Counted from the stretch's first letter, positions 10,542 to 44,787 are shown. The stretch: 64,000 nucleotides of DNA from Lachnospiraceae bacterium (GCA_024403515.1 JAKSRS010000002.1:86388-150387), one strand, 5' to 3'. The notes: a model not told the origin generated them from the letters alone. A program made the numbers and translations.

Positions 10542-11882
10542 ATGAAGGAATTAGTAGAAGAAGTGATATCTGCAGAAAGTTTAGATGCAGGTAAGAAGAT
10601 ATATGAATTTGCGGACCTGATTTTCCCAATCTGCCGTAGTATAAGTGGAGACGGGGTTCGTGAAACTTTGAAACTAATTTCAGAGAAGATAAAAAATGAT
10701 ACCGAAAGAGACCTCAAGATTTTTGAGGTCCCTTCCGGTTCTTCTGTTTTTGACTGGACAGTTCCTAAGGAGTGGAAGATTAGGGACGCCTACATTGAAA
10801 ACGAAAACCATGAAAAGATTATTGATTTTAAAAACAACAACCTTCATGTACTTGGATATTCTACTCCGGTAGATGAATGGGTTGATCTTGAAGAACTGAA
10901 AACACATATATATACCGAACCCTCACAGCCCGATGCTATTCCTTACGTTACAAGTTATTACAAGGAACGCTTCGGCTTTTGTATGAGTGAGAATATGAAA
11001 AATGGCTTAAAGCCTGGAAAGTATCACATGTACATTGACAGTGAACTTTTCGACGGAAGCCTTTCTTATGCCGAACTTAAAATTAAGGGAAAGAGTGAAG
11101 AGGAAGTCTTTCTTTCGACTTATACCTGTCACCCTTCCATGGCTAATAATGAATGTTCCGGTCCTGCGCTTATGACTGAACTTATAAAGTTTGTTTCAGA
11201 CATGGCTAAAAGCGAAAAGGGCCTTAGATATTCCTATAGATTTATTTTTATTCCTGAAACAATCGGCTCGATTACATATTTAAGCCGTAATCTTCCTGAA
11301 ATGAAGAAGAATGTCATAGCGGGTTTTAACCTTTCCTGCGTTGGAGATGACAGGGCATATTCAATTGTTCACTCAAGATATGCCAACACCTTTTCAGATA
11401 AGGTTCTTATGAATGTTTTAAAATTCATGGGTGAATATAAAAGCTACTCTTTCTTAAAAAGAGGTTCTGATGAAAGACAGTACAATGCACCCGGCGTTGA
11501 CCTTCCGGTTGTGACCTTCTGCAGGTCCAAGTACTGTGAATATCCTGAGTATCATACTTCGCTTGATACAATGGACCTTGTAAGTGAAAGAGGTTTTGCC
11601 GGTGCTTACGAGGTAATGACCCAGTGCATTAAGGCTATAGAAGCCAACTACAAATACAAGATGAATGTTCTTTGCGAGCCTCAGCTTGGAAAACGTGGCC
11701 TTTATCCTTCAATAAGCCGAAAGGGTACATATGACGCGGTAAAATCGCTTACTGATTTCATTGCATACTCAGATGGAAGTAATGATCTTTTTGATATAAG
11801 TAAGATCATCGAGGTTCCGGTTAAGGAGCTTATCCCCATAGCCGATAAACTTTTTGAAAACGACCTGATTTCCAGGGTTTAG
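10542..11882 (+). CDS. DUF4910/DUF2172 M28-like aminopeptidase-fold protein
   Basis: 446 residues, no signal peptide. It has the layout of the DUF2172/DUF4910 proteins: an N-terminal beta domain (GSSVFDWTVPKEW), an M28-like zinc peptidase fold (FLSTYTCHPSMANNECSGPA, later GSDERQYNAPGVDLP and YPEYHTSLDTMD) and a C-terminal winged-helix part. Candidate metal ligands are the His of TCHPS, the Glu/Asp of that region and the His of YHTS. As I recall, a homologue (Cj1295) in the Campylobacter jejuni flagellin glycan locus is needed for a di-O-methylglyceric acid modification of pseudaminic acid. It heads the acylation module that continues to 17504. Confidence 0.75.
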   Translation: MKELVEEVISAESLDAGKKIYEFADLIFPICRSISGDGVRETLKLISEKIKNDTERDLKIFEVPSGSSVFDWTVPKEWKIRDAYIENENHEKIIDFKNNNLHVLGYSTPVDEWVDLEELKTHIYTEPSQPDAIPYVTSYYKERFGFCMSENMKNGLKPGKYHMYIDSELFDGSLSYAELKIKGKSEEEVFLSTYTCHPSMANNECSGPALMTELIKFVSDMAKSEKGLRYSYRFIFIPETIGSITYLSRNLPEMKKNVIAGFNLSCVGDDRAYSIVHSRYANTFSDKVLMNVLKFMGEYKSYSFLKRGSDERQYNAPGVDLPVVTFCRSKYCEYPEYHTSLDTMDLVSERGFAGAYEVMTQCIKAIEANYKYKMNVLCEPQLGKRGLYPSISRKGTYDAVKSLTDFIAYSDGSNDLFDISKIIEVPVKELIPIADKLFENDLISRV

Positions 11883-11909
11883 TAAAACACTTTCCAAAGA
11901 GGAAAAAGA

Positions 11910-12761
11910 ATGAGCAACAAACTGATTGAAAATATCATTGAAAATGCAAGGGGACTTGGGATAGAAAAGGGTGACATTTTATATGTTGCCAGTGATATTA
12001 CAAGACTTGTGTTTGCACTTATGGATAAATATGGTGTAGAAGGAAAAGCCGGACAGAAGGAAGCACTAAATCAGCTGACTGATGGCCTTAAAGACCTTGT
12101 TGGAGAAGAGGGAACTTTGCTTATTCCTACTTTTTCATGGGCTTTTTGTGCAGGTAAAGGCTTTGACAGAAGTAAAACTAAAAGTGAGGTCGGAGCTTAT
12201 TCCAATTTCATTTTAAAGAACAGGGATGACTTTAGAAGAACGCGTCACGCGATGTATTCTTTTGCCGTATGGGGAAAAGACGCTGAAATGTTACTTAACA
12301 TGGATAACCAGGATGCCTGGGGAGAAAAGTCTGTCTTTACATACTTAAGAGACAATAATGCCAAGGAATTAAACATTGACTGCGAACCATTCCAGGGAAT
12401 GACCTTTGTACACTACGTCGAGCAGTGTGTTGATGTTCCCTACAGACACCTTAAATATTTCTTTGGTAACTACACAGACTATGACGGAACTAGTGAGTTT
12501 AGAATGTACTCCATGAACGTAAGGGATATGGATGTTTCAACGGGTGTCAGCACTACTGATGAATATCTTATTTCCAAAAACCTTGCTAAGAAGGTATTAG
12601 TTGACGGAATAGGACTTACCCTTATTGATCTTACTGCGTCATATCCTGTAATTGTTGATGATTTAAAGAACAACAATGGTGCCAATAATATTTATTTTAA
12701 GACCGGTGGCCTTGACTGGACTAAGGAAAAGACTCTTCCTTATGAGATTGGAAAGATCTAA
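11910..12761 (+). CDS. AAC(3)-family acyltransferase of the acylation module
   Basis: 283 residues matching the antibiotic N3-acetyltransferase fold: KGDILYVASDITRLVF at the N-terminus, EGTLLIPTFSWAFC, RTRHAMYSFAVWGKDAE and FQGMTFVHYVEQ. The family uses acyl-CoA, or in some clusters acyl-ACP, to acylate amino groups. Beside FkbH and ACP genes the likely acceptor is an amino sugar or a small intermediate, not an aminoglycoside drug. AGAGGAAAAAGA precedes the ATG. It sits 27 bases after the DUF4910 gene in the same operon. A resistance role should not be assumed. Confidence 0.8.
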   Translation: MSNKLIENIIENARGLGIEKGDILYVASDITRLVFALMDKYGVEGKAGQKEALNQLTDGLKDLVGEEGTLLIPTFSWAFCAGKGFDRSKTKSEVGAYSNFILKNRDDFRRTRHAMYSFAVWGKDAEMLLNMDNQDAWGEKSVFTYLRDNNAKELNIDCEPFQGMTFVHYVEQCVDVPYRHLKYFFGNYTDYDGTSEFRMYSMNVRDMDVSTGVSTTDEYLISKNLAKKVLVDGIGLTLIDLTASYPVIVDDLKNNNGANNIYFKTGGLDWTKEKTLPYEIGKI

Positions 12762-12803
12762 GACAGTGTTTTTAGGCTAAAGAAATAACAGTGGAGATAT
12801 TTT

Positions 12804-14582
12804 ATGATTAACGAGCTTAATTATCCTTTTGATGCCGAATATATAATGGCCAAAAAGAAAAAAATAAAGAAGACCCTGCTTGAAAATACAGCAGGAATGG
12901 TTCCTAAAAAGATTGCTATTTTAGGTGGTTCTACCACAAATGATATCAAACTTGTGATGGAACTTTTTCTTTTAAATTACGGAATTATTCCTGAGTTTTA
13001 TGAATCAGAGTACAACCGTTACTATCAGGATGCAATGTTTGAAAACGCTGAGCTTGAAAAGTTTGCTCCTGATGTAATTTACATTCACACAAGCAATAGA
13101 AATATTACAACATATCCAAATCTTTCTTCTTCCAAAGAAGATGTTGAAGCCTTGCTAAAGGCTGAAATGGATAAGTTTAGCGGAATGTGGAAGCACCTTA
13201 AAGAGAAGTACAAATGCCCCATTATTCAGAACAACTTTGACTATCCTTATTATCGATTAATGGGTAACAAGGATTCTTATGATTTTCACGGACACACATA
13301 TTTTGTAAACAGATTAAATCAGGCTTTTACTGAATTTGCAGCTGATTTTGAAGGTCTTTACATATGTGATTTAAACTACATTTCTGCTGATTACGGTCTT
13401 AAAGCATGGGCAGATCCTTTTTACTGGTACATGTACAAGTATGCACTTTGCGTACCTGCAATTCCCTATCTTTCATTTAATGTTGCCAATATAATCAAGT
13501 CATTATTTGGAAAGAACAAGAAGGGATTTGTACTTGATCTTGACAATACTTTGTGGGGCGGCGTTATCGGAGACGATGGCGTTGATAACATAGCATTAGG
13601 ACCGGAAGAGTCTGAAGGCCAGGCTTATCTTGAATTCCAACGCTATATTAAAGAGCACAAGCAGTTAGGTATTATCTTAAATGTTGATTCCAAAAACGAT
13701 TATGAAAATGCCATTGCAGGTTTAAATCACCCTGATAGTGAGTTAAAGCCTGATGAATTTATTGAAATCAAGGCCAACTGGGATCCTAAGGATCGAAATT
13801 TCGCCCAGATTGCATCATCACTTACCCTGCTTCCTGAAAGTCTTGTTTTTGTTGATGACAATCCCGCAGAAAGAGCGATTGTAACCGGTCAGCTTCCGGG
13901 CGTATGTGCTCCTGAAATCCACAAGGCCGAAGAGTACATTGGTATAATCGACAGATCCGGATTTTTTGAAGTGACCAACTTATCCAAAGATGACCTTAAC
14001 AGAAATGCAATGTACAAAGAAAATGCTTTAAGAGCATCACTACAGGCCAGCTTTGAAAATTATGAAGATTACTTATTAAGCCTTGAGATGAAGGCCGTGA
14101 TTCGTTCTTTTGAACCTATCTATATGGCCAGAATCGCTCAGCTTACAAATAAGAGCAACCAGTTTAACCTTACAACCAAAAGATTTACTCAGGAAGAAAT
14201 CGAGGCTGTTGCAGCGGATGATTCATATATTACTTTGTATGGTAAGCTTGAGGATAAATTTGGCGATAATGGTGTTGTAAGCGTTGTTATCGGTCACATT
14301 CAGGGTGATGTATGCCACATAGAACTCTGGCTTATGAGCTGCCGTGTCTTAAAACGTGACATGGAAGTTGCGATGATGGATGAACTTGTAAAGATTTGTA
14401 GCAGCAAGAACATCAAGACTGTGGTCGGACACTACTATCCTACAGCCAAGAATCACATGGTTAGTGAATTTTATGATAACTTTGGCTTTGTGCTTGAAAG
14501 CGAAGACGAGGATGGAAACAAGGAGTATTCACAGAGGGTAGCTGACTACGAATACAAGAATAAAGTTATTGTTTTAGTTTAG
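12804..14582 (+). CDS. FkbH-like HAD-IIIC protein (glyceryl-ACP loading)
   Basis: 592 residues with three parts: an N-terminal SGNH-like region (about 35-235, AILGGSTTND), a HAD-IIIC phosphatase core (about 238-390; D245 and D247 in VLDLDNTLWGGVIGDDG, then VFVDDNPAERAIV), and a C-terminal GNAT-like domain (about 425-590; NQFNLTTKRFTQEEI, ELWLMSCRVLKRDMEVAMMDEL). FkbH family proteins dephosphorylate 1,3-bisphosphoglycerate and load the D-glyceryl group onto an acyl carrier protein. All HAD catalytic residues visible here are intact, and an ACP gene follows 57 bases later. Glyceryl as the actual acyl group is inferred from the family. Confidence 0.88.
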   Translation: MINELNYPFDAEYIMAKKKKIKKTLLENTAGMVPKKIAILGGSTTNDIKLVMELFLLNYGIIPEFYESEYNRYYQDAMFENAELEKFAPDVIYIHTSNRNITTYPNLSSSKEDVEALLKAEMDKFSGMWKHLKEKYKCPIIQNNFDYPYYRLMGNKDSYDFHGHTYFVNRLNQAFTEFAADFEGLYICDLNYISADYGLKAWADPFYWYMYKYALCVPAIPYLSFNVANIIKSLFGKNKKGFVLDLDNTLWGGVIGDDGVDNIALGPEESEGQAYLEFQRYIKEHKQLGIILNVDSKNDYENAIAGLNHPDSELKPDEFIEIKANWDPKDRNFAQIASSLTLLPESLVFVDDNPAERAIVTGQLPGVCAPEIHKAEEYIGIIDRSGFFEVTNLSKDDLNRNAMYKENALRASLQASFENYEDYLLSLEMKAVIRSFEPIYMARIAQLTNKSNQFNLTTKRFTQEEIEAVAADDSYITLYGKLEDKFGDNGVVSVVIGHIQGDVCHIELWLMSCRVLKRDMEVAMMDELVKICSSKNIKTVVGHYYPTAKNHMVSEFYDNFGFVLESEDEDGNKEYSQRVADYEYKNKVIVLV

Positions 14583-14639
14583 AATATGGGAATTTTCTTT
14601 TGCCTTTAATGAGAGAAATGTTTGAAAGGTGTTTTATAA

Positions 14640-14879
14640 ATGAGCAGATTAGAAGTATTTGAAAAATTGCAGGAAATTTTTGCGGATGTGTTTGATGACG
14701 ATACAATCGAACTTACTGATGAAACAAACTCCAACGATATCGAAGATTGGGACAGCCTCGAGCAGATTAACCTCATCGTTGCCATCGAAACAGAATTTTC
14801 AATCAAGTTTCAGATGGGTGAAGTAAGTAAGATTAAAAATGTCGGCGAAATGGCTGATTTAATCCTCGAAAGAATTTAA
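14640..14879 (+). CDS. Acyl carrier protein
   Basis: 79 residues, acidic and helical, with the phosphopantetheine attachment site D38-S39-L40 in EDWDSLEQINLIVAIE. It is the expected acceptor for the FkbH-like protein and the donor for the MBOAT protein encoded next, so it holds the position of DltC in a Dlt-like pathway. The ribosome site is a modest AAAGGTG. Its 3' end is partly duplicated in the following intergenic gap. Confidence 0.9.
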   Translation: MSRLEVFEKLQEIFADVFDDDTIELTDETNSNDIEDWDSLEQINLIVAIETEFSIKFQMGEVSKIKNVGEMADLILERI

Positions 14880-14940
14880 CTATAGAAAAGATTTAACTAT
14901 AGAGAGATTTAATCCTTGAAAGAATTTAATTATAGAAAGA
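14857..14940 (+). repeat. Direct duplication of the 3' end of the ACP gene
   Basis: The 34 bases 14857-14890 (end of the ACP gene plus about 11 bases) recur at 14907-14940 with three differences, offset by exactly 50 bases. A half unit, GATTTAACTATAGAGA (14891-14906), lies between. The copy is non-coding and fills the gap before the MBOAT gene. Confidence 0.85.
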
Positions 14941-14954
14941 CTGAGAATTAGTAC

Positions 14955-16427
14955 ATGTTATTCAACTCATATGTATTTTTGCTTCTTTTCTTTCCACTCA
15001 CACTGATTGGTTACTATGTCCTCAAGCATTTCAAGCAGGCTACACTCATGAAAGTATGGCTGATTGGAATGTCTTTGTGGTTTTATGGATATTTTAATCC
15101 ATGGTACCTTCTTATCATCATAAGCAGTATCATAGTCAACTATGGTCTTTGCATACTGATGAATAAGGTGGCATCGGGTGAAGAAAAGAAAAAGCTGCGT
15201 AAGTTAATAATGATCATAGGTATAGTATTTAACGTAGGAATTCTTTTCTACTACAAGTACTTTAACTTCTTCATCGACAATATTAACTGGATTTTTAAAT
15301 CTGATATTTTAATTGAAAAAATCCTGCTTCCTTTGGGTATAAGCTTCTTTACCTTCCAGGAAATAGGTTTCATGGTGGATTCATATAAGGGAGACGTTAA
15401 GAATCTTTCTTTTGTTGACTTCTTCCTTTTTGTAACTTTCTTCCCACAGCTTATCGCGGGACCGATTGTTACTCAGGATGAAATGCTTCCACAGTTTAAA
15501 GAACTTGCAAACAAAAAGTTCGATAAAGATCAGTTCGCGCGAGGACTCGCCCTTTTTATTATGGGCCTTATGAAAAAGGTACTTATTGCTGATGTGTTTG
15601 GCGGTGCTGTTGACTGGGCGTATGCAAACCATTTGGCGCTCAACTCGACTGGTTCAATTCTTGCCTTACTTTTCGCTAATTTACAGATGTATTTCGATTT
15701 TTCCGGATACTGTGATATGGCCAGAGGTATCGGTGGAATGTTCTTAATAGACATCGTCGTTAACTTCAATTCGCCCTACAAGGCCAAATCTGTCCTTGAA
15801 TTCTGGTCAAGATGGCAGGTTACCATGTCAAGATTTTTGACAAGATACATATATATTCCTTTAGGCGGAAGCAGAAGGGGAGAACTGAGAACCTGCATTA
15901 ATACCTTTATTGTTTTCACTATCAGTGGTATCTGGCATGGCTCAGGCTGGAAATATATGATCTGGGGTATGCTGTACGGTATTTTAAATATCTGTTCAAG
16001 ACAGTTAAGACCAATTAAAAAGAAAATCCCTGCAGTTATAAACAATATAGAATGTTTTATCTTTGTCTGCCTCATGGGATCACTGTTTAGGGCTGAAACC
16101 TTAAAACAGTTTGGACAGATGCTTTCTAAGGTATTTACTTTAAATTATGGTGCGATTCCTCTTGAGATGGCACAGGCTTTTAATAGAACTGAGTATCTTT
16201 TTATTCAGGATTGTTTCCACATCTCAAGCCTTTCTTTTGCACCATATATAATGATTGTTTTATTTATGGTACTGGCATTTTTCTTATGCTTTATCACAAG
16301 AAATGCCTGCGAAATCGCAGCACAGCTTAAATTTAAGGTAAGCTCAGCTATACTTCTTGCAGTCGGACTGATTTGGTCTGTTATATCGCTTTCAGAAGTT
16401 AGTACATTTTTATATTTCAATTTCTAA
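14955..16427 (+). CDS. MBOAT family membrane O-acyltransferase (DltB/AlgI-like)
   Basis: 490 residues, about eleven membrane helices. Family hallmarks are visible: LPLGISFFTFQEIGFMVD, FFPQLIAGPI, YFDFSGYCDMARGIGGMFLI, FNSPYKAKSVLEFWSRWQVTMSRF and GIWHGSGWKYMIWG with the catalytic H328. MBOAT proteins of this class pass an acyl group from a carrier through the membrane to an extracellular polymer. Here the neighbours supply an ACP and a glyceryl-loading enzyme instead of the DltA adenylating enzyme. The ATG has only a weak ribosome site in the duplicated AT-rich spacer, so expression may be limited or coupled. Confidence 0.92.
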   Translation: MLFNSYVFLLLFFPLTLIGYYVLKHFKQATLMKVWLIGMSLWFYGYFNPWYLLIIISSIIVNYGLCILMNKVASGEEKKKLRKLIMIIGIVFNVGILFYYKYFNFFIDNINWIFKSDILIEKILLPLGISFFTFQEIGFMVDSYKGDVKNLSFVDFFLFVTFFPQLIAGPIVTQDEMLPQFKELANKKFDKDQFARGLALFIMGLMKKVLIADVFGGAVDWAYANHLALNSTGSILALLFANLQMYFDFSGYCDMARGIGGMFLIDIVVNFNSPYKAKSVLEFWSRWQVTMSRFLTRYIYIPLGGSRRGELRTCINTFIVFTISGIWHGSGWKYMIWGMLYGILNICSRQLRPIKKKIPAVINNIECFIFVCLMGSLFRAETLKQFGQMLSKVFTLNYGAIPLEMAQAFNRTEYLFIQDCFHISSLSFAPYIMIVLFMVLAFFLCFITRNACEIAAQLKFKVSSAILLAVGLIWSVISLSEVSTFLYFNF

Positions 16428-16436
16428 GGATTAGTT

Positions 16437-17504
16437 ATGGACGAAAACAAGCAGATATCAAAATGGATAAAAGCTATTGTTATTGCCATTGCTCTATTGA
16501 TGCTTTTATGCATGGGAATGGTTATAGTGGTAGATCCGTTTTTTCAATATCATAAGCCGTTAAAAGGATTTCCTTACAAAGTTGATAACCAGTTGTCAAA
16601 TAATGCCGGAATGGCCAAAACATTCGATTACGACAGTATATTAACCGGCTCTTCAATGGTATCCAATTTTGATCTTGATTCATTAAAATTTAAGACAGGT
16701 TCAAACACAATAAAGGTTAACTATAACGGCGCTTATCCTAAGGATATTGCCAATATCCTCGAATATGTTTTTGCTGAACATAAGGATTTAAAAACAGTAT
16801 ATTTTGGAATGGATATTTACTCTTATAACTCAGAGACTGAGGAAGTAAAATATCCTTTTCCTGCACATCTTTATGATGACAATCTTATAAACGACGTATC
16901 ATATCTGTTTAATAAAGACGTACTGGTTCAGTATATTATTGAACCCCTTCGTTTTCCTTCTCAGAAAACAGATTTATCCAGAGTTTATATGATGGAATAC
17001 GATGATTCCCAGTACAGCAGGGATTGGGTTTTAACTAACTATAAGATTGCTGACAAGGTTACTCTTACAGAAGATGAAGTTGCACAAAAGTATCAGCTTT
17101 TAGATGAAAACCTTGAAAAGAACCTTATTCCTTTTATCGAGGAACATAAGGATACGAAGTTTGTTGTATTCTACCCACCTTACAGCATTCTTTACTGGCA
17201 TAACAAGAATCTTGAGGGCTGGTACGATATCATATTAAACGAATACAAAATAGTAACTGAAAGACTTTTAGAATACGATAATGTTGAAGTTTACTGTTTT
17301 TCAGATGCATGGGACCAGGTAACAGACCTTGATAACTATGTTGATTACATTCATCAGCATGCAAGAGTAAATGAATATATTATGGATTGCTTTTCAAATG
17401 GCAGCCACAGGATAACAAAAGAAAACGTCGATGAGGTTACAGAATCACTTAAAGCATATTTAGATGAGTTTGATTATGGTAAGGAATTTGGCCTGACCGA
17501 ATAA
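16437..17504 (+). CDS. Membrane-anchored SGNH-type protein, DltD-like partner of MBOAT
   Basis: 355 residues. One N-terminal membrane helix (about 10-33) is followed by an extracellular SGNH-fold domain. Block I is ILTGSSMVSNFD with candidate nucleophile S72; block V is DYIHQH with D303 and H306, so a full Ser-Asp-His set is present, as in DltD. In the Dlt system the equivalent protein transfers the acyl group to the polymer outside the cell. It begins ten bases after the MBOAT stop, with AAGGA seven bases before the ATG. The sequence is too divergent to be called DltD itself. Confidence 0.75.
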   Translation: MDENKQISKWIKAIVIAIALLMLLCMGMVIVVDPFFQYHKPLKGFPYKVDNQLSNNAGMAKTFDYDSILTGSSMVSNFDLDSLKFKTGSNTIKVNYNGAYPKDIANILEYVFAEHKDLKTVYFGMDIYSYNSETEEVKYPFPAHLYDDNLINDVSYLFNKDVLVQYIIEPLRFPSQKTDLSRVYMMEYDDSQYSRDWVLTNYKIADKVTLTEDEVAQKYQLLDENLEKNLIPFIEEHKDTKFVVFYPPYSILYWHNKNLEGWYDIILNEYKIVTERLLEYDNVEVYCFSDAWDQVTDLDNYVDYIHQHARVNEYIMDCFSNGSHRITKENVDEVTESLKAYLDEFDYGKEFGLTE

Positions 17505-32118: not shown

Positions 32119-34302
32119 ATGAATATACTGGTAATCGGTGGTGCAGGAACATTTTTAAATAACTTGCTTATTAAGTGTCGTAAAGAAGGCCATAAGGTAT
32201 CTGTCCTTACAGGAAGCAGATTTTCCAAGAAGGAAGACTACCAGAAGTGCTTTGAAGTTTATAAGTTTCCTTATGATGCAGGCTGCATCAATGAGATATA
32301 TGAAAGTGTAGCTCCTGATGTGACAATTTATATGGGTGCATATGATACTAACTATACTTGGAAGAATGAAGAAGATGATTCGGTTAAGTATATTGCATCA
32401 ATGGCAAATATTATTATGGGCTATATTATGAGCGGAAAGGGAAGATTTATTTATCTTTCATCTGAAAGTGTATTTAGTGAGTCCTTTGCTGAAGCTATCA
32501 CAGAGGGTACACCTACTTCACCTAACGGCTTTAGAGCGCAAGCAATTTACCAGGGCGAGAACCTTTGCGAAAACTACAGAAGGAACCGTGATATGGATAT
32601 TGTCACAGTGCGCTTTGACCACCTCTATGGCATTCCTGAAAATCGTTCTGATGTTAACGACATCGTTAACATGATGTGTCTTGAATCCTTATCGGAAAAG
32701 ATTATTCATTATACTAAGGATTCTGTTATTTCTCCATTATATGAAAAAGATGGTGTGGAGGCTATACACCGTTTAATCGTCGCTAATAGTCATGAGCATG
32801 ATTTGTACCAGATTTCTTCCGGTGTTGCCTATGAAGAAGAGGAAATCGCTAACATCGTGCGAAATTATATGAATCCTGAAATCGATGTTGTAAGTGTTCC
32901 CGGAAGATCAGGTGCACAAAGCATTCTTTCAGGCGAATTGTTTGAAAGTGAATTCGGCAAGATGACTTATAACGATTTGTCTGACAGGATAAAGAAAATT
33001 GTTCTTCAGATGAAGAAGAATGAGTACATTTTCCTTTCTGACGAAGAAGCTGCAGTTCCACTTAGTAAGCGATTAAAGAAGAATTTAGGCTGGTTTGTAA
33101 GAGCGATAGTTCCTTTTATCGAAAGTGTAATTGTTTTTATCCCTGTATTTTTATTGTATAACCAGACACTTACAAGTAATTATTTTGCGAAACTTGATAT
33201 TTATCTTCTTTATGTTTTGCTTTTCGCAGTGGTTTTTGGTCAGCAACAGGCAACCTTTTCAGCCTTACTTGCAGTAATCGGTTTCTTTATCAGGCAAACT
33301 AATGATAGAACCGGTTTTGAAATTCTTCTTGATGGAAATACTTATGTATGGGTTGCTCAGTTATTCATCGTAGGCTTATCTGTAGGATACATGCGTGACC
33401 AGATTAGAAAATTGGTTACAGAAAGTCAGGAAGAGAAAGAATATCTCGAACAGCAGATAGATGATATTCAGGATATCAACTCTACAAACGTACGAGTTAA
33501 GGATATTCTTGAAAATCAGGTAGTTAACCAGGCGGATTCAATAGGCAAAGTTTACAGTATTACATCAGCACTTGATCAGTATAGTCCTGAAGAAGTTCTT
33601 TTCTATGCAGCTGAAACAGTAAGCCGTCTAATGAAGACAGATGATGTAGCTATCTATACGGTTTCCAACTCTGATTATGCGCGTCTTTTCTCATCAACAT
33701 CAGCGAAATCGAGAAGCCTTGGAAACTCGCTTAAATACAGTGAAATGGGAGAAATGTACGAAGCAATTTCTTCTAATAACGTTTATATTAACCGTAAGAT
33801 GGATTCAAGATATCCACTTATGGCAACAGCGATTTTTGAAAATAATCAGATGCAGATGATTATCATGGTATGGGGTCTTTCATGGGAAAACATGACCTTA
33901 GGACAGGCCAATACACTTGTTATTGTCAGTGCACTTATTCAGAACGCTGTTTTACGTTCAAGCCGCTATCTTGCAGCACTTGAAGACAGAAGATATGTAG
34001 ATGGAACACAGATGCTTGAGTCAGAGAGCTTTAAAGCGCTTCTTGATGCATTCTCAATGGCTGAGACTAAGGGTCTTACAGAATGTACGATTCTTAAGAT
34101 TGCAAACGGAGAAGTTGCATTTGACGAAGCAGTACAGATCATCCAGAAGGGACTTCGTCAGACAGACTACTTCGGAAAACTTGGAGACGGTTTTATCTAT
34201 GCTCTTTTATCTAATACAAATCGTGAAGCAGCAGGATATGTTATTAACCGTTTTGCAGATAAAGGTCTTACATGTGAAATTACAGAGGAGTACGGATTAT
34301 AA
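32119..34302 (+). CDS. pelD: PelD-like c-di-GMP receptor fused to an SDR domain
   Basis: 727 residues. Residues 1-290 form an extended SDR/epimerase-like domain (MNILVIGGAGTFL nucleotide loop). Where active enzymes have YxxxK, this reads YQGEN, so the catalytic lysine is missing. Four membrane helices follow (about 330-430), a coiled coil (EEKEYLEQQIDDIQDIN), a GAF domain (about 480-620) and a degenerate GGDEF domain. In the last, GGDEF is LGDGF (688-692) and an intact inhibitory-site motif RQTD (680-683) lies just before it, as in PelD, which binds c-di-GMP with this site. PelD activates Pel polysaccharide synthesis with PelE, PelF and PelG. Fusion to an SDR domain is, I believe, known in Gram-positive Pel loci. 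Confidence 0.85.
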   Translation: MNILVIGGAGTFLNNLLIKCRKEGHKVSVLTGSRFSKKEDYQKCFEVYKFPYDAGCINEIYESVAPDVTIYMGAYDTNYTWKNEEDDSVKYIASMANIIMGYIMSGKGRFIYLSSESVFSESFAEAITEGTPTSPNGFRAQAIYQGENLCENYRRNRDMDIVTVRFDHLYGIPENRSDVNDIVNMMCLESLSEKIIHYTKDSVISPLYEKDGVEAIHRLIVANSHEHDLYQISSGVAYEEEEIANIVRNYMNPEIDVVSVPGRSGAQSILSGELFESEFGKMTYNDLSDRIKKIVLQMKKNEYIFLSDEEAAVPLSKRLKKNLGWFVRAIVPFIESVIVFIPVFLLYNQTLTSNYFAKLDIYLLYVLLFAVVFGQQQATFSALLAVIGFFIRQTNDRTGFEILLDGNTYVWVAQLFIVGLSVGYMRDQIRKLVTESQEEKEYLEQQIDDIQDINSTNVRVKDILENQVVNQADSIGKVYSITSALDQYSPEEVLFYAAETVSRLMKTDDVAIYTVSNSDYARLFSSTSAKSRSLGNSLKYSEMGEMYEAISSNNVYINRKMDSRYPLMATAIFENNQMQMIIMVWGLSWENMTLGQANTLVIVSALIQNAVLRSSRYLAALEDRRYVDGTQMLESESFKALLDAFSMAETKGLTECTILKIANGEVAFDEAVQIIQKGLRQTDYFGKLGDGFIYALLSNTNREAAGYVINRFADKGLTCEITEEYGL

Positions 34303-35210
34303 TGTCAAAGCAGATGTTGTGGTTTCTAATATTTATCGTTATTAACACGATTATTACAGTTGTATATTTCCTCTACGGCTTTTTTAAACAAAAGACCAAG
34401 ACACGACTCATCACAATTCGTTGTATCGTAATGCTTTGCGCGCCTGGCGTCGGACTGCTTCTTTTCTTTACAAGCTGGCTATGTTACCGAATCTTCTTTA
34501 GAGAAGATGTCGACCTTTCAGACGTTGTATTCAGTAAGGAAAGAGAACGTGAAATAATCAGAACAAACGAAGAAAGAGATAGAAATGTCGTTCCTCTTGA
34601 AGAAGCAATTGAAGTTGCGGGTAATGCTGCTTTGCGAGGCCTTGTAATGAATATTACTCAGGGTGATGTTGAACAGCTTCTTTCATCAATTTCTATGGCG
34701 CTTAATTCAGAAGATTCAGAAACTGCGCATTATGCAGCGAGCGTATTGCAGCAGACCTTAAGTGAGTTCAGGTTAAAAGTATCGAAGGATTATCAGGCAA
34801 TTCAGAGGCAGGATGAGTTCTTTATCGAGAGGTCACATGAACTCATCAATTATATGAACAGATTCCTTTCGCAGAAAGTTTTTAGTAGCACAGAGCAGAA
34901 AGCGTATGTTGGTGTGCTCGAAAATGTTGCAACTTTAATATATGAATTTGGTTTGGAAACATTTACCAGCGACCTTTACGAAACTGTGTGTTTGCGACTT
35001 CTTGAGGTTGAGGAATATGGTAAATGCAATATGTGGTGTGACAGGGCAATGAATCAGTTCCCTGAAGAACTTTCATCATATACGTGTAAACTTAAATTAT
35101 ATTTTAATACAGAGCAAAGAGATCGTTTCTTTGCGACAATGGAAGAACTTAAGCGTTCCGCTATTGTAATCGACAAGGAAACATTGAATCTTATAAGAAC
35201 ATTCCAGTAA
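34302..35210 (+). CDS. pelE: PelE-like membrane-anchored scaffold protein
   Basis: 302 residues. Two N-terminal membrane helices (about 5-25 and 38-62) are followed by a cytoplasmic helical domain. It contains VPLEEAIEVAGNAALRGLVMNITQGD, DSETAHYAASVLQQTLSEFR and a TPR-like C-terminal half, all as in PelE. The ATG overlaps the pelD stop codon (TAATG), so the two are translationally coupled. PelE links PelD to the synthase PelF and to PelG at the membrane. Assignment rests on position, topology and the AAxVLQQTLxE-type repeat segment. Confidence 0.78.
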   Translation: MSKQMLWFLIFIVINTIITVVYFLYGFFKQKTKTRLITIRCIVMLCAPGVGLLLFFTSWLCYRIFFREDVDLSDVVFSKEREREIIRTNEERDRNVVPLEEAIEVAGNAALRGLVMNITQGDVEQLLSSISMALNSEDSETAHYAASVLQQTLSEFRLKVSKDYQAIQRQDEFFIERSHELINYMNRFLSQKVFSSTEQKAYVGVLENVATLIYEFGLETFTSDLYETVCLRLLEVEEYGKCNMWCDRAMNQFPEELSSYTCKLKLYFNTEQRDRFFATMEELKRSAIVIDKETLNLIRTFQ

Positions 35211-35235
35211 AAATTAACGAGGAGGACAAGGGGAT

Positions 35236-37506
35236 ATGTCTATGGCTCTTATAACAATAAGACAGTTAATCTCCATATTTTTGGCATATCTTTGCATTTC
35301 TGTGCTTGTTCCCCACTTTGTGCTTGGAAAAACACTCAGATTAAGGAACCGCTACGAGAAATTTTTAATTTATACAATATTTGGCAATTTCTACGTTATA
35401 AATCTGGTGTATTTTTTGGAGATTTTCCACATATCATACAGATTTACACTGATTCTGTTGACTGTGATTCCGTGTATTTTGATAAAAATCAAGTTGGAGA
35501 GAATCCCGGTAGCAGCATTTTTAAAAGAAAAATGGGAAATTTTCAGAAGATTGACCGGAGGTCAGCTGGGAGTCAAAGCATACCGAGAGTCCAGAAAACC
35601 TTTACATAGACAGTGGAGAGACAACATCGTCAATCATCTATATGATGTTTATGTAACAAAATTTCTTGATGTCCTTGCAATAGTTATTCTCCTGGTAGGC
35701 CTTGTCTACATTTACGGCCAGGATTTGTTTAATATATATGGTTACAAGGCCTCAGATGTAGTTGTTCACAATTACTGGATTAACTCGATGATGGGTAACA
35801 AGATATTTGTTACGGGTATATATCCATACGGATTTCATAATGTAGTTTACTATTTGCGAGTTTTTTTTGGAATTGACATTATGGCAACGCTCAGACTGTT
35901 TTCTTTTGTGCAGGCAGTGTGGGTTCATGTTGAGTTACTATGTTTCCTTAAAATAATTTCCAAGACAAGATTTCTTCCTTATCTTGGGGCTTATACATAT
36001 TTATTTGCTGATTTTTATCGATTGAACACATATAGCCGTTTTACGGCTTCGCTTCCGCAGGAATTCGGAATGATTTTCATTCTTCCGACGGCTTATGCTT
36101 TGATGTCGTACTTTAGATTTCAGCAACGCGAAGATAGAGGCGATAAAACGGGAAAAACCAAGATGATTTTAGTTGCGTTTTGCATGGGTTTTTCATTGAC
36201 GTTTACAGTTCATTTTTACGGTGTAGCTATTATTGGCCTGTATTGTGTAGCTATAGCCATAGGATTTATTAAACTCTTTGTGAAGAAGAAATATTTCACG
36301 AGAATAATGCTAACGGGAATAATAAGTGTCTTTGTGACACTTTTGCCGATGATTATAGCTTTTGCCGGCGGTACAAGGTTGCAGGATTCAATTTATTGGG
36401 GCATGAGCGTTATCGAAGGTAATCCCCGTGAAAATGAAGATATTTCGCTCCCTCAGACCGACGGCGAGGAAGAAAAAGACCGTCTCGTTGAGGAATATGG
36501 CGCCGTAGTTGGTACTGCAGTATATGGCGCAAACAGCATAAAAAATAATATGGGAGCCAATATTATTGAAAACAAGTATAGCAATTTTGGATATTTGGTG
36601 ATTGTATTTCCGTTTATGCTGCTTCTTGTAGGAGGCATTGTATACGCCTTTACGAAAAAGAGAGATCAAATATATGCTTCTGTTCTTTTGTCGGGGGCGG
36701 TATTCACCTTACTAATGGTCTTCATGCTAAATGCCTCATTGTTTCACCTCCCATCTGTTATGGATATGAACCGAGGCGGAATTTATTATGCATATATTTC
36801 AACAATAAGTGTTGTGCTTATTGCTGATGGAATTATATATCTTATTACCCTTTGGGACAAAAGAAAGTGGGTTTCTAATGCCTGCTCATTTGTGTGTGTT
36901 GCAGCAATTGTTGCTTATGCATCAACTCATGGAGGGATTAAGTCCCCTGTGAAGTCGACACCACAGGAAATGAACGACGCTGTGGAGTGCCTTACGAATA
37001 TAATGATTAAGGACGAACCTCATATGTGGACGATTGTTTCGGCTAACGATGAGCGTCAGATGGCTAACGATAAAGGTTTCCATTATGAAAGCATAGATTT
37101 CTTATCAAATATGGAAAACTGGACTACTTATCATAAAGTCACAATACCAACACCAACTGTCTACTTTTTTGTTGAGAAGACACCACTTGCGTACAATGAG
37201 ATAGGATATGATTCGGAAGAAATGATTTCAGAAAAGTCGGCGAACAGTATTCTTCCGAATAAAATGGGTATTGAAACATACCAGGGACACAATCGATTGA
37301 CGGTTATGTCGAGACTATATTACTGGTGTGAGGCTTTTATGAAGTTATATCCCAACGAAATGACAGTTTTTTCTGAGTCCGACAATTTTATTTGCTACAG
37401 AGTTGAGCAGAATGCATACAGACTGTTCAATTTTGCTATAGATTACGATTATAACACACGAGATTACCCGGAGACCGCGGCTGATAGCGACGCCGCTAAC
37501 GGATAA
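35236..37506 (+). CDS. Large polytopic membrane protein, GT-C-like, in the pel locus
   Basis: 756 residues with about twelve membrane helices up to residue 560 and a C-terminal extracellular domain of about 190 residues. The loop after an early helix reads YKASDVVVHNYWINSMM and then GIYPYGFHNVVYYL. This resembles GT-C glycosyltransferases, where an acidic residue in the first large loop (here the D of SDVVVH) and a YP or YPxG motif follow. Such proteins use lipid-phosphate-linked sugars as donors. No counterpart exists in the classical pel operon, so it is an accessory gene of this lineage. GAGGAGGAC precedes the start. Donor and acceptor are unknown. Confidence 0.55.
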   Translation: MSMALITIRQLISIFLAYLCISVLVPHFVLGKTLRLRNRYEKFLIYTIFGNFYVINLVYFLEIFHISYRFTLILLTVIPCILIKIKLERIPVAAFLKEKWEIFRRLTGGQLGVKAYRESRKPLHRQWRDNIVNHLYDVYVTKFLDVLAIVILLVGLVYIYGQDLFNIYGYKASDVVVHNYWINSMMGNKIFVTGIYPYGFHNVVYYLRVFFGIDIMATLRLFSFVQAVWVHVELLCFLKIISKTRFLPYLGAYTYLFADFYRLNTYSRFTASLPQEFGMIFILPTAYALMSYFRFQQREDRGDKTGKTKMILVAFCMGFSLTFTVHFYGVAIIGLYCVAIAIGFIKLFVKKKYFTRIMLTGIISVFVTLLPMIIAFAGGTRLQDSIYWGMSVIEGNPRENEDISLPQTDGEEEKDRLVEEYGAVVGTAVYGANSIKNNMGANIIENKYSNFGYLVIVFPFMLLLVGGIVYAFTKKRDQIYASVLLSGAVFTLLMVFMLNASLFHLPSVMDMNRGGIYYAYISTISVVLIADGIIYLITLWDKRKWVSNACSFVCVAAIVAYASTHGGIKSPVKSTPQEMNDAVECLTNIMIKDEPHMWTIVSANDERQMANDKGFHYESIDFLSNMENWTTYHKVTIPTPTVYFFVEKTPLAYNEIGYDSEEMISEKSANSILPNKMGIETYQGHNRLTVMSRLYYWCEAFMKLYPNEMTVFSESDNFICYRVEQNAYRLFNFAIDYDYNTRDYPETAADSDAANG

Positions 37507-37526
37507 AGAAGATGGGGAAGATGAAC

Positions 37527-39365
37527 ATGATTTCTCGAAGAAATTTTGGAATTATTACAATACTTATGCTGATTGTTCTTGTAATCTTTCAGTTTAGTGA
37601 AGTGGCCAAGAATGCAGGCAATCATTATTCAGTGAATGAAAGCCTCGATGAAAAATATCCTGCCAATATGCAGTATCAGGCTAAAAACTTTTTACTTGGG
37701 ACAGATGCTGTGGCAGATTGGGAAAAGGATAATTACATCCTCTATGTGGGTGACAGCAAAACCAACATGGGAAGTGTTGTCAGCCAGTGGGTAACATACA
37801 CAAAGCGCAAGATGCTTGAATGTCACAGCCTTTCTGATTTTGAATTGGAAAAATTCGGCAGACCTGAATTTACTGTTATTGATTCGAAGTATGTCGACTT
37901 CGAAAAAGAAACAGACAAGCTCATAGAAATGGCCGATGAGGGAATGTCTATTGTTTTTTGCTCACTTCCTGATTCGGAAATTATTACACCTAATGAAAAG
38001 TTAAAAAAACTTATGGGTATTTCCTATCGCAAAGAGAAGAGCGTTACAGTAGAAGGAATCAAGCTTTTCTCGGGCTTCCTTTTTGGCGGAGAAACAATTT
38101 ACGAGCCTAAGAAGGCCAAAGAAGAGCGTCGTCAGGACCTTGAGCTTAATGTTCCCTGGTACATTACAGCAGGTGCAACTAAAACATATATGGTCGGTAT
38201 TCTTGATGAGTATTTTCAGGATTTCAAGGATAAGAATGACTTCTTTCCTGCACTTATTTGGAGAAACAGCTATAGCGCAGATTCACAGATTTTTTGTGTA
38301 GTAGGAGACTACATGGAAACGACAGCCGGAATCGGAATTCTTGCTTCTATGATTTATGAACTTTCCGATTATCAGATATATCCGGTCGTGAATGCGCAGA
38401 ATACTCTTTTGATTTCATATCCTTTGCTGGCAAACGAGAATGATGAAGAAATAAAGTCACTGTATACAAGATCATATGATGCGTTTCAAAATAATGTAAT
38501 CTGGTCATCTCTTGTTGCTGCTCAGGAAAAATATAAACTAAAATATACGGCCTTTTTGACACCAAAATACAACTATTCAGATGGAACCGAGCCTGAACTT
38601 GACACTTATGTTCCATATCTTACTAATTTTAAAGAAAAAGGAACTGAAGTAGGATATTCATTCATCCATGATTCTTCTGTTGATTTATTGGAAAAAGTAA
38701 ATAAAGATGAGGAATATCTGTTAGAACTTGAGAACAGATATCCTTCAACAAGTGCCTTTATGGATTTAAGTGAGAAGAATCAGTTACTCGATTCGTTAAA
38801 GGCGTCACACACTTCGAATATTAGAACAATAGCTTGCGATGAAGATGTTCAAGTTCCGATTTTAAGCTATCTTACAGATGATGTTACACTACAAAGTTTG
38901 ACAAGTAATACTGAAAACTTTACTTATTCGAGAGATCTGATGCTCAAGTCAGTCGAAACAGCGCTCGGATATGATAATGCAAAACTTGATTTTACTAAGG
39001 TGGCCTGGCCCCAAAATGAAAATGAGCATTGGGAAAAGATATATGAAGATATGTCAAGTTCTCTTGCTACATTTTGGAAACCTTTCAGAGTTTATGACAG
39101 AACGACACTTTCTGAAAGTGATAAGAGAGTAAGAACATTCTTAAATATCGAATCTGTATCTAAAAGAGACGGAGATGTTATTGAACTTGATATTACAGGC
39201 AGAGATAATGATACATGCTATTTTGTGCTGAGAACTCATGGCTATATTATTGATTCTGTAAGTGATCTTGTTTCTTACAAGGAAATTGAAGATTATGCAT
39301 ACTTACTCACAATTGATTGTGACAAGGTAACAATCAATCTTAAGAATGCATTGAACTTGAAATAG
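37527..39365 (+). CDS. DUF2194-like extracellular protein in the position of PelA
   Basis: About 612 residues. A single N-terminal helix (about 6-24) anchors a large extracellular domain. It has the layout of DUF2194 proteins that accompany pelF in Firmicutes: an N-terminal Rossmann-like part (DNYILYVGDSKTN, IVFCSLPDSE) and a later barrel-like part (SFIHDSSVDLLEKV). I see no NodB-type D-H-H metal triad (no HxxxH), so deacetylase activity, which PelA provides in other species, is not evident. The start is uncertain among ATGs at 37512, 37521 and 37527; the last has GGGGAAG at a proper distance. It may modify or guide nascent Pel polymer. Confidence 0.6.
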   Translation: MISRRNFGIITILMLIVLVIFQFSEVAKNAGNHYSVNESLDEKYPANMQYQAKNFLLGTDAVADWEKDNYILYVGDSKTNMGSVVSQWVTYTKRKMLECHSLSDFELEKFGRPEFTVIDSKYVDFEKETDKLIEMADEGMSIVFCSLPDSEIITPNEKLKKLMGISYRKEKSVTVEGIKLFSGFLFGGETIYEPKKAKEERRQDLELNVPWYITAGATKTYMVGILDEYFQDFKDKNDFFPALIWRNSYSADSQIFCVVGDYMETTAGIGILASMIYELSDYQIYPVVNAQNTLLISYPLLANENDEEIKSLYTRSYDAFQNNVIWSSLVAAQEKYKLKYTAFLTPKYNYSDGTEPELDTYVPYLTNFKEKGTEVGYSFIHDSSVDLLEKVNKDEEYLLELENRYPSTSAFMDLSEKNQLLDSLKASHTSNIRTIACDEDVQVPILSYLTDDVTLQSLTSNTENFTYSRDLMLKSVETALGYDNAKLDFTKVAWPQNENEHWEKIYEDMSSSLATFWKPFRVYDRTTLSESDKRVRTFLNIESVSKRDGDVIELDITGRDNDTCYFVLRTHGYIIDSVSDLVSYKEIEDYAYLLTIDCDKVTINLKNALNLK

Positions 39366-39381
39366 TAAGAGGAGAGTTAAC

Positions 39382-40806
39382 GTGAAAATTTGTATTGTGG
39401 CAGAAGGCTGCTATCCCTATGTAGTAGGCGGTGTATCCGGATGGATTCACAGTATGATTGAAGCTTTTCCGGAGCATGATTTCATCATTCTGGGAATGAT
39501 TCCAAATCGTAAACAAAGTGGTAAGTTTGCTTATGAATTGCCTAAAAATGTATCGGCTGTTTATGAAGCATATCTTGACGATTATGACTGGGTTAATACA
39601 AAAAAGGAAGGCAAAAGAACACACCTTAGCAAGAAGGAATATCGCGCCTTAAGAAGTCTTGTATTGAACAGACGTGTTGAATGGGACACTTTATTTGATA
39701 TGTTTCAAAGTGAAAAGTTTTCGACGGATGATATCCTTATGGGCGCAGACTTTTTAAAGATTGTTCAGGAATATTACAACGAGAATTATCCTCAGATTGT
39801 ATTTTCTGACTTCCTTTGGACACTGAGATCGATTTATTTAAATCTTTTCCTTGTTATGAAGACCCCCATCCCTGAAGCAGATGTATATCACTGTGTAGCA
39901 ACAGGTTATGCAGGCATTCTTGGTGCGATGGCGAACCACAAATATGGAAGTAAACTTCTCATTTCAGAGCATGGTATATATACACGCGAAAGAGAAGAAG
40001 AAATAATAAAGGCGAGCTGGGTTAAAGGAATTTACAAAACAATTTGGATAGAGCAGTTTAAGAAAATGTCACAGGTTGCATATGATAAAGCTGACCTTGT
40101 TACTAGCCTTTATAGCCATGCAAGAGAACTCCAGATTGAATTGGGTTGTCCTGAGATGAAAACCAGAGTTACTCCGAATGGTATCGATGAAAAGAGATTT
40201 GAAAACATACCGGGAAAACTTCCTGAAGATGAGGGAATGATCAATATCGGTGCTGTCTTACGAGTTGCACCGATTAAAGATGTAAAGACAATGATTCAGG
40301 CATTTTCTTTTGCCAAGCAGAGAGTATCTAACCTTAAACTTTGGATTATGGGGCCTATTGACGAGGACGAAGAATATGCTAATGAGTGTATTGAACTCGT
40401 TGATGCTTTAGGTATTTCTGATGTTGTATTTACAGGAAGAGTTGATGTTGCTCAGTATATTGGCAGGATGGATTACACAATACTTACAAGTATAAGTGAA
40501 GGCCAGCCACTCACAATTTTAGAGGGATTTGCGAACCATCTTCCTGCGATTGCGACAGATGTGGGTAACTGTAGAGGACTTATCTATGGAGACCACGAAG
40601 GTGACAACGAAGCAGCAGGTATCATCACTCACATTATGAATGTAGGTGAAATAGCCGATGCAATGGTTGATCTTGCAATTCATCCTGATAAGCGCAAAGC
40701 TATGGGTGAAGTTGGATATAAACGAGTAGTTGATTATTATGGAATAGATGAAATGAGAGAATGCTATGGTGAAATTTACGGAGACCTTAGCTTGAATAGG
40801 GATTAA
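39382..40806 (+). CDS. pelF: PelF glycosyltransferase (GT4)
   Basis: 474 residues, cytoplasmic. The N-terminal DUF3492 region is diagnostic: MKICIVAEGCYPYVVGGVSGW and HSMIEAFPEHDFIILGM. The C-terminal GT4 domain has ISEHGIYTRERE, TPNGIDEKRF and an E-x7-E motif in SEGQPLTILEGF. PelF polymerises the cationic amino-sugar polysaccharide Pel from UDP-activated N-acetyl hexosamine. The start codon is GTG at 39382 with AGAGGAGAG upstream. It is the most secure Pel gene and anchors the identity of the locus. Confidence 0.92.
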   Translation: MKICIVAEGCYPYVVGGVSGWIHSMIEAFPEHDFIILGMIPNRKQSGKFAYELPKNVSAVYEAYLDDYDWVNTKKEGKRTHLSKKEYRALRSLVLNRRVEWDTLFDMFQSEKFSTDDILMGADFLKIVQEYYNENYPQIVFSDFLWTLRSIYLNLFLVMKTPIPEADVYHCVATGYAGILGAMANHKYGSKLLISEHGIYTREREEEIIKASWVKGIYKTIWIEQFKKMSQVAYDKADLVTSLYSHARELQIELGCPEMKTRVTPNGIDEKRFENIPGKLPEDEGMINIGAVLRVAPIKDVKTMIQAFSFAKQRVSNLKLWIMGPIDEDEEYANECIELVDALGISDVVFTGRVDVAQYIGRMDYTILTSISEGQPLTILEGFANHLPAIATDVGNCRGLIYGDHEGDNEAAGIITHIMNVGEIADAMVDLAIHPDKRKAMGEVGYKRVVDYYGIDEMRECYGEIYGDLSLNRD

Positions 40807-40808
40807 TT

Positions 40809-42248
40809 ATGGCAGGAATTGGTATTAGACTAAATAAAATTTACAGTAAAGAATCAATTTTTACGAAACTGTTTGGATTTGGATATTCCGTAGTTGTTAC
40901 AATAGCTCCTATGTTAATTATTATCGCTGTAATCGTATTGATGCAGCTTGTGCTTGGCTTCTCCAGCCTTGACTATGTAACAAGGGAGTTGTATGCGTGT
41001 ACAGTTCTTTATATTTTCATATTTGCACTTCTGACTGCGTCACCGTTTAATGCGGTAATATCCAGATATATGTCCGATATTATTTATGAAGAAAAGTATG
41101 AAGATATTGCACCCTGCTTTTACACCGGATTAATTATGAATACTATATTTTCATTTATACCCGCTTTGCTTTTTTGCATTCATGAGTACAAAGTCGGCGG
41201 TGTTAACATATGGTATGTGTTTGCCGGATTTGCAGGTTATATGTGTCTGATGTTTACCTTTTACATAATGCTTTACCTTTCAATATGTAAAGATTATAAA
41301 AAGATATCACTTTTCTATATCATCGGAATGATAGTAACATTTTTGCTTGCGTGCATTCTTTACTTTTTCTTTGGCGTAAGATGTGACATAGCAATGCTTG
41401 TGGGTCTTGTTGTAGGCCTGTTTATCATAGCAATGCTTGAGTACGCACAGTTTAGACAGTATTTTAAAACTAATTCAGGCAACTATTTTGGCGTGCTTCC
41501 ATATTTTGCAAAATATTGGCAGCTTGTAGTTGCAAACTTCTTTTATATATTTGGTCTCTACGTTCATAACTTCGTATTTTGGAATACAGATATGAAGATG
41601 ATAGTAGTTAAGAGCTTTGTTTGCAATCAGCCATATGATATGGCAAGTTGTCTTGCTATGTTTACAAATATTACGTCAAGCGTTATTTTCCTTACTCGTG
41701 TTGAAATGTATTTCCACGACAGATATAAAAGATATTCAGAAGCAGTTATCGGTGGACGTGGAATGGATATAACAAGAGCTAAGCAGAGAATGTTCAGACA
41801 GCTTATGGAAGAAGTGATGACTCTTGCACGTGTACAGTTTATTGTTACAACAGTAATCTTTTTAATTGCCATGATCATTCTTCCGAGACTGGGCTTTGGT
41901 GGCACAACACTTAGAATTTATCCTTGTTTAGCGGCAGGTTATTATATTCTGTTTTTGATGTATGCGATTATTATTTTCCTTTACTATTTTAACGATTTAG
42001 CTGGTGCAGTAATGACTTCCGTTTCATTCTTCATCGCGACATTATTCTTTAGTATTTTAGCAACTAAACTTCCTGTTATCTGGTATGGCATCGGTATGGT
42101 TATTGGTGCATTTGTAGGATTTTCGATTGCCTACTATAGAATACGAAGAATGGAAAAAACGTTGGATATTCATGTTTTCTGTAGTGGAAGTATCCTTAAA
42201 AAAGGAAAAGGTCGAATGCCTTCAAATCTTGTGTATGAGAGGAATTAA
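40809..42248 (+). CDS. pelG: PelG membrane transporter
   Basis: 479 residues with about twelve helices of the MOP flippase superfamily. PelG features are visible: MAGIGIRLNKIYSKESIFTK at the start, SPFNAVISRYMSDIIYEEKYEDIAPCF, NYFGVLPYFAKYWQLVVANFFY and GLYVHNFVFW. PelG forms the membrane channel for the growing Pel chain with PelD and PelE. It starts two bases after the pelF stop codon. An outer-membrane exporter is not expected in this monoderm cell and none is present. Confidence 0.92.
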   Translation: MAGIGIRLNKIYSKESIFTKLFGFGYSVVVTIAPMLIIIAVIVLMQLVLGFSSLDYVTRELYACTVLYIFIFALLTASPFNAVISRYMSDIIYEEKYEDIAPCFYTGLIMNTIFSFIPALLFCIHEYKVGGVNIWYVFAGFAGYMCLMFTFYIMLYLSICKDYKKISLFYIIGMIVTFLLACILYFFFGVRCDIAMLVGLVVGLFIIAMLEYAQFRQYFKTNSGNYFGVLPYFAKYWQLVVANFFYIFGLYVHNFVFWNTDMKMIVVKSFVCNQPYDMASCLAMFTNITSSVIFLTRVEMYFHDRYKRYSEAVIGGRGMDITRAKQRMFRQLMEEVMTLARVQFIVTTVIFLIAMIILPRLGFGGTTLRIYPCLAAGYYILFLMYAIIIFLYYFNDLAGAVMTSVSFFIATLFFSILATKLPVIWYGIGMVIGAFVGFSIAYYRIRRMEKTLDIHVFCSGSILKKGKGRMPSNLVYERN

Positions 42249-42250
42249 TT

Positions 42251-42637
42251 ATGATTGATGCGGGAGATTTACTAAGAATTATTCTATTTGTAATGGGCGC
42301 AGTTATGTTATTTGTAACAGTTGCCAGCCTTGCAAAGCGAAAAATGAATGAGTCTTTTTGCCTGGTATGGGGAATTGTATCAGTTGCAACTATTTTGGCA
42401 GGATGCCTTTTAAGACCGTCAGAATGGACAAACTACATGTCAGGAGTGGGACTTGCGCTGGTATTGGTCATTATTTTTTGTGCATTATACTGCGTTTATT
42501 TTGTAAGTCTAAAAATATCCGAACTTACGCGTAAAAATCAGGAATTGGCTATTCAGGTTTCGCTTCTTAATCAGGAAAACGAAAAGATAATGAAAAGACT
42601 TTCTGATATGACAGGTCTTGATAAACGCGAAATATAA
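42251..42637 (+). CDS. DUF2304 membrane protein
   Basis: 128 residues with three membrane helices (about 6-25, 35-52, 62-85) and a C-terminal coiled coil (SELTRKNQELAIQVSLLNQENEKI). This is the DUF2304 pattern, a family almost always encoded beside a GT2 polyprenyl-phosphate sugar transferase, as here. It probably anchors or assists that enzyme. Start ATG 42251 is two bases after pelG. Confidence 0.82.
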   Translation: MIDAGDLLRIILFVMGAVMLFVTVASLAKRKMNESFCLVWGIVSVATILAGCLLRPSEWTNYMSGVGLALVLVIIFCALYCVYFVSLKISELTRKNQELAIQVSLLNQENEKIMKRLSDMTGLDKREI

Positions 42638-42648
42638 TGGGGGATAAA

Positions 42649-44749: not shown

Positions 44750-44758
44750 TACTATAAT
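44730..44758 (+). promoter_or_regulatory. Internal promoter before the flippase gene
   Basis: TTGGTT (44730-44735), 17 bases, perfect TATAAT (44753-44758), overlapping the end of the DUF4874 gene. It would let the second half of the locus be transcribed independently of pel. Confidence 0.5.
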
Positions 44759-44787
44759 AAATAATTCTGTTACAAAGTGGAAAACAG

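Follow-up and report, generated by a model that had tools for sequence, protein, structure and literature searches.

Which enzymes use the acyl group that an FkbH-like protein places on its carrier? The question is raised by six co-directional genes (gaps of 27, 42, 57, 75, and 9 bp) spanning 10542-17504 of the window, a 64,000-nucleotide stretch of DNA from a gut bacterium of the Lachnospiraceae. Their order, DUF4910, AAC(3)-like, FkbH, acyl carrier protein (ACP), MBOAT, and SGNH, was recognized in a first-pass annotation and is borne out by the open reading frames, by Pfam and NCBIfam matches, and, for SGNH, by an AlphaFold model (Table 1). The annotation read the last four genes as one pathway built like Dlt. 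The present analysis leans toward two blocks. In the first, the ACP loaded by FkbH would feed AAC3/DUF4910 in the cytoplasm; in the second, MBOAT and SGNH would work as a pair of their own, of the CoA type. We give this reading, drawn from sequence comparisons, a probability of about 0.55.

Table 1. The six genes, with coordinates in the window
Product	Coordinates	Strand	Basis
DUF4910 / DUF2172 protein (Cj1295 type), M28-like fold with winged HTH	10542..11882	+	PF16254 306 bits, PF09940, PF16221
AAC(3)-like (Antibiotic_NAT) acyltransferase	11910..12761	+	PF02522 87 bits
FkbH-like HAD-IIIC phosphatase / glyceryltransferase with FkbH_N domain	12804..14582	+	TIGR01686 247 bits
Acyl carrier protein (ACP), phosphopantetheine site S39	14640..14879	+	PF00550
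MBOAT; H328, Gln288, FLYFNF with Y487, 40-residue inter-His segment	14955..16427	+	PF03062 118 bits; best PDB fold DltB
Membrane-anchored SGNH transferase, DltD/PatB-like; S73, D303, H306	16437..17504	+	AlphaFold model, DltD match

FkbH, ACP, and their partners

By family and motifs, FkbH and ACP are probably a standard glyceryl-loading pair. The FkbH domain scores 100 bits over its cut-off of 146.65. Residues D245, D247, T249, S296, D351, D352, and C513 are each at least 98% conserved among 92 homologues, and the window protein retains nearly all positions conserved to that degree, including DxDxT and C513. The DxDxT nucleophile and this conserved cysteine are both hallmarks of FkbH enzymes that load glyceryl onto ACP. 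The DLDNT motif (D245/D247/T249) had rightly been called intact, and a count on the translation also places the ACP site at S39, as annotated. A stand-alone ACP served by FkbH, with 1,3-bisphosphoglycerate as donor, is established in tetronate and methoxymalonyl pathways (Mad7/Mad8; PMC7489565); the window differs in having no polyketide genes and in its surface-modification context. Against the DltC-type carrier model NF003464, the ACP reaches 16.5 bits, below the cut-off of 68.

Samples centered on different genes reveal the company that this pair keeps. Neighbors were called with HMMs built for this analysis, on contigs that may end early; the samples are small, and those drawn by genome search come from one family. 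Eighty FkbH loci were taken from genome contigs, and 71 of them have ACP nearby by these calls. Separately, 348 genomes of the family were searched with the window AAC3-like protein, yielding 10 other loci that were examined about 6 kb to each side where the contig allowed. A carrier protein accompanies AAC3/DUF4910 in eight of the ten. The loader at these eight loci varies: FkbH in three (L280, L285, L288); a DltA-like adenylation enzyme in three (L281, L287, L289); and none visible in two (L284, L286). AAC3 and DUF4910 are fused into one protein in L286. An MBOAT was found in none of the ten stretches.

The FkbH-centered sample adds five further DUF4910-AAC3-FkbH-ACP loci, four of them without MBOAT (L033, L054, L069, L090; L069 and L280 apparently are one locus). 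An AT3 acyltransferase follows the four genes in L033, and L036 has the order FkbH-VOC-ACP-DUF4910-AAC3 with an upstream MBOAT of another clade (clade b, described below). On the FkbH tree, the DUF4910-AAC3-FkbH-ACP arrangement has several origins. Because eight of ten AAC3 loci include a carrier, none includes an MBOAT, and one fuses AAC3 to DUF4910, the favored view is that these four genes would make a complete module by themselves, with the natural boundary after ACP. The AAC3-like enzyme then would be the user of the carrier-bound acyl group, and support for a partnership with the ACP appears strongest for DUF4910 and AAC3, ahead of MBOAT and SGNH.

The DUF4910 protein has a solved relative (3k9t, E 1e-106); the AAC3-like protein has no sequence relatives in the PDB, and its scores fall well short of the cut-offs for AAC(3) equivalogs.

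What might the module acylate? We take Cj1295 to belong to the DUF4910 family and Cj1296/7 to the AAC3-like family. In Campylobacter jejuni, deletion of cj1295 removes di-O-methylglyceric acid from flagellin pseudaminic acid, and both Cj1295 and the neighboring N-acetyltransferase gene (Cj1296/7) have been connected with pseudaminic and glyceric acids (PMC3068675). The earlier likening of the first two genes to this locus is apt: on these family assignments DUF4910 adjoins an AAC3-like gene in both, and this genome encodes PseI (467 bits; cut-off, 340) and flagellin. On the window's contig, 8-12 kb past the window end, a Maf-like gene is flanked by two flagellin genes. Moreover, NeuB, PseI, or PseG genes stand beside the DUF4910-AAC3 module in L036, L280, L281, and L289. 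The window differs from the C. jejuni locus in its Gram-positive host and in having FkbH-ACP adjacent in the same operon.

Block 1 (10542-14879) thus may be pictured as a self-contained carrier-protein acylation module. FkbH would move glyceryl from 1,3-bisphosphoglycerate onto ACP, as its family suggests; the AAC3-like enzyme and DUF4910 protein would then act in the cytoplasm, attaching the acyl group to the precursor of a surface glycan at an amino or hydroxyl position. The acceptor most likely would be a pseudaminic-acid-type sugar, as in the Cj1295 system.

The MBOAT-SGNH pair

The window resembles the Dlt D-alanylation pathway (DltA-C-B-X-D) in having a carrier protein, a DltB-fold MBOAT, a DltD-like SGNH protein, and an acyl-Tyr shuttle motif. 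However, the DltA adenylating ligase gives way to FkbH; the shuttle is carried by the MBOAT itself, where Dlt has the separate microprotein DltX; and a short segment is present where DltB has the DltC-docking helix. No gene in this genome exceeds the DltA cut-off (TIGR01734). The match of the MBOAT model to DltB is one of fold only, and its score against the DltB equivalog TIGR04091 is 123 bits versus a cut-off of 375.

H328, named at the outset as the MBOAT residue, is invariant in 115 of 115 MBOATs. Two features had escaped notice. One is the carboxyl-terminal FLYFNF, a fused DltX-type acyl-shuttle motif whose Y487 is kept in all 113 MBOAT rows having a letter there. The other is Gln288; the 107 other MBOATs in which the motif was read all have His. 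Q288 aligns with DltB His289, and H328 with DltB His336; DltC docks on the helix between these two histidines (PMC11035591). The inter-His segment comprises 40 residues in the window MBOAT and in 33 of 34 unlinked relatives. A length of 57 is found in all 19 adenylation-linked MBOATs, in six of seven FkbH-type clade-b rows from an MBOAT-drawn sample, and in 44 of 56 rows of a mixed FkbH-near set. We infer that the 40-residue segment would mean CoA use; if so, segment length may be predictive of carrier use among MBOATs.

The SGNH protein has no Pfam match and no sequence relatives in the PDB, so its assignment comes from the AlphaFold model (pLDDT 95.4). The model confirms that the protein folds as an SGNH enzyme, and its top PDB matches include PatB and DltD (DltD 6o93: Z 12.7 over 255 residues). 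The proposed triad of S72, D303, and H306 needs one correction: D303 and H306 are invariant in 45 of 45 sequences, and so is S73 (in G71-S72-S73), which is the nucleophile in place of S72.

Members of the window MBOAT clade pair with matching SGNH proteins, and in most of them the neighborhood contains neither loader nor carrier; the SGNH tree agrees with the MBOAT grouping. The pair groups largely with systems lacking FkbH, an outcome that the first-pass annotation itself had held to weigh against its proposal. Features of PatA/PatB and AlgI-type O-acetyltransferases are evident: the FLYFNF shuttle, catalytic H328, and an SGNH partner with Ser-Asp-His. The shuttle corresponds to the carboxyl-terminal FXYXXF fused to MBOAT in those systems, and carrier-free relatives are a further likeness (PMC12148441); the window has ACP and loader directly upstream. 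Block 2 (14955-17504) would be a pair of the PatA/AlgI kind whose Tyr shuttle (Y487) is built into the MBOAT. Most likely it would export an acyl group taken from CoA, probably an acetyl group, to a polymer of the surface, with no part played by the ACP.

Glyceryl transfer by the window MBOAT itself is possible, though less likely than not. On this alternative, a glyceryl counterpart of Dlt evolved separately from the C77-type operons described below, when a PatA/AlgI-type MBOAT captured the FkbH-loaded ACP; the product would be surface glyceryl esters, and the carrier would be shared with AAC3/DUF4910. The window MBOAT is altered at several conserved positions, with S330 and K333 shifted towards residues of the carrier-linked clade. 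(As proof of a new donor, window-specific active-site substitutions were rejected: the window has seven deviations at conserved columns, and FkbH-less relatives have 7 to 12.) An FkbH gene overlaps an MBOAT gene of the window's own subclade in L251, and window-type MBOATs also adjoin FkbH in L180 and L170. In L166 and L186-188, FkbH-ACP-SGNH lies opposite a divergent MBOAT that belongs to the broader clade and has a more basic segment of 44 residues; such remodeling suggests that the clade is able to adapt. On the MBOAT tree, FkbH linkage is scattered, requiring seven changes for nine rows.

The original proposal, in which glyceryl-ACP is the donor for the window MBOAT, Y487 and then SGNH pass the group to a surface polymer, and AAC3 and DUF4910 are accessory, draws on several of the same observations: the recurrence of FkbH beside MBOATs of the broad clade (L251, L180, L166, L186-188), the basic 44-residue segment of L166 and L186-188, and the unusual active-site changes, together with gene order and tight spacing. 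Only 75 bp separate the ACP and MBOAT genes, which share a strand, and no terminator-like site was detected between them. We nonetheless consider this proposal doubtful. The nearest MBOAT and SGNH relatives have neither FkbH nor carrier; the window MBOAT keeps the canonical short segment, without the long carrier-type form; the conserved His that corresponds to DltB His289 is Gln in the window protein; DUF4910 and AAC3 are recurrent partners of FkbH-ACP; and the exact six-gene combination was repeated at no other locus sampled. Two further lines of evidence were set aside: a promoter/terminator scan, which gave a chance-level result; and MBOAT strand bias relative to FkbH, which carries no information because co-directionality is the rule for other genes as well (89%).

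A second MBOAT-SGNH pair in this genome (L014:78-2763, contig C35) is of the L186-188 type, with a 44-residue basic segment and no adjacent FkbH or ACP; a carrier from another locus may serve it.

Carrier-linked MBOATs and the C77 operon

FkbH-ACP-MBOAT-SGNH neighborhoods, for which the first-pass annotation proposed a genome search, do exist, and by gene content they are widespread. Operons of this kind with the long segment number in the dozens in Lachnospiraceae, including one on contig C77 of this genome. In the FkbH-centered sample, MBOAT lies within 5 kb of FkbH in 49 of 80 loci, mostly in one clade (clade b). Forty-six of 47 sampled clade-b rows are FkbH-linked, although FkbH was the route by which most of these rows entered the sample. 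A less biased, MBOAT-drawn sample comprises 30 clade-b-like loci: 20 have adjacent genes for a DltA-like adenylation enzyme, a PLP-decarboxylase, and/or a DltC-like carrier; seven have FkbH or its ACP; and three have neither. Against DltA, for which the cut-off is 560 bits, these adenylation enzymes reach 239-315. Clade-b MBOATs thus appear to be carrier-linked, with FkbH and DltA-like loaders interchangeable.

In C77, a 40-type MBOAT also adjoins an FkbH-ACP already provided with a 57-type MBOAT of its own; adjacency alone therefore is no proof of coupling. The C77 FkbH-ACP-MBOAT-SGNH operon is the likelier candidate for the genuine Dlt-like pathway that FkbH drives in this genome.

Three Lachnospiraceae loci (L253, L255, L257) have an adenylation enzyme and an ornithine/DAP-type PLP decarboxylase beside MBOAT-SGNH, with a DltC-like carrier in L253 and L255; this suggests a decarboxylated amino acid as surface acyl donor. 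In L256:5042-8905, a phosphotransacetylase-like gene (identified by eye) directly precedes an FkbH-type ACP, MBOAT, and SGNH, with no FkbH in the stretch examined.

According to a 2025 paper (PMC12148441), MBOAT/SGNH pathways other than Dlt have no carrier protein; operons of the C77 type would seem to form a large exception. More generally, the loci point to a modular scheme in Lachnospiraceae in which carriers can be charged by different loaders (FkbH, or DltA-like adenylation enzymes that are sometimes accompanied by a PLP-decarboxylase gene) and can serve different outlets, namely MBOAT-SGNH on the outside and AAC3-DUF4910 on the inside. If so, surface glycans of common gut bacteria would bear glyceryl or related acids, seemingly never looked for. 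In open-licence literature searched by title, no FkbH pathway with MBOAT or polysaccharide is described, an absence that is no proof of novelty; one aeruginosin review contains all three terms of one search.

The acyl group and other observations

Two blocks remain the preferred reading. A further alternative concerns the acyl group itself: the FkbH-ACP product could be an acid other than glyceryl, or could be processed, for example to a lactyl-type acyl group, before transfer. MaoC genes occur near FkbH in 36 of 80 loci and SDR genes in 32 of 80, and a VOC epimerase-like gene also occurs; but all three are absent from the window operon and could act only in trans, which makes this alternative unlikely. 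That one acyl-ACP serves both AAC3/DUF4910 in the cytoplasm and MBOAT/SGNH outside is also improbable: each outlet occurs with FkbH-ACP elsewhere and L036 combines both, but its MBOAT is of clade b, not the window type, and no locus repeats the window combination.

At L024:12044-13194 and 30-odd other FkbH loci, a MaoC-like dehydratase and an SDR reductase immediately follow FkbH-ACP, and could convert glyceryl-ACP into a lactyl-type acyl group. A small VOC protein is encoded beside FkbH-ACP at L187:5493-5888, between ACP and SGNH, with similar sequences at L166:2905-3300 and L180:7240-7596 and in L188. The L187 protein is methylmalonyl-CoA-epimerase-like (57 bits; cut-off, 115); an epimerase for the alpha-carbon of the carrier-bound acid is a possible role.

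Among genes for surface structures, this 2.8 Mb genome contains 17 for MBOATs, seemingly a rich repertoire for surface acylation. PseI is fused to a formyltransferase domain at L290:8143-9792, which suggests an N-formyl nonulosonic acid. The gene between the two flagellin genes (L291:9201-10757, contig C44 beyond the window) is of the MptE/Maf-like flagellin modification type. Finally, positions 32119-46344 of the window hold a possible exopolysaccharide operon, which we take to resemble a pel-like set; its products include an NAD-epimerase protein and a DUF2194 protein (37512-39365).
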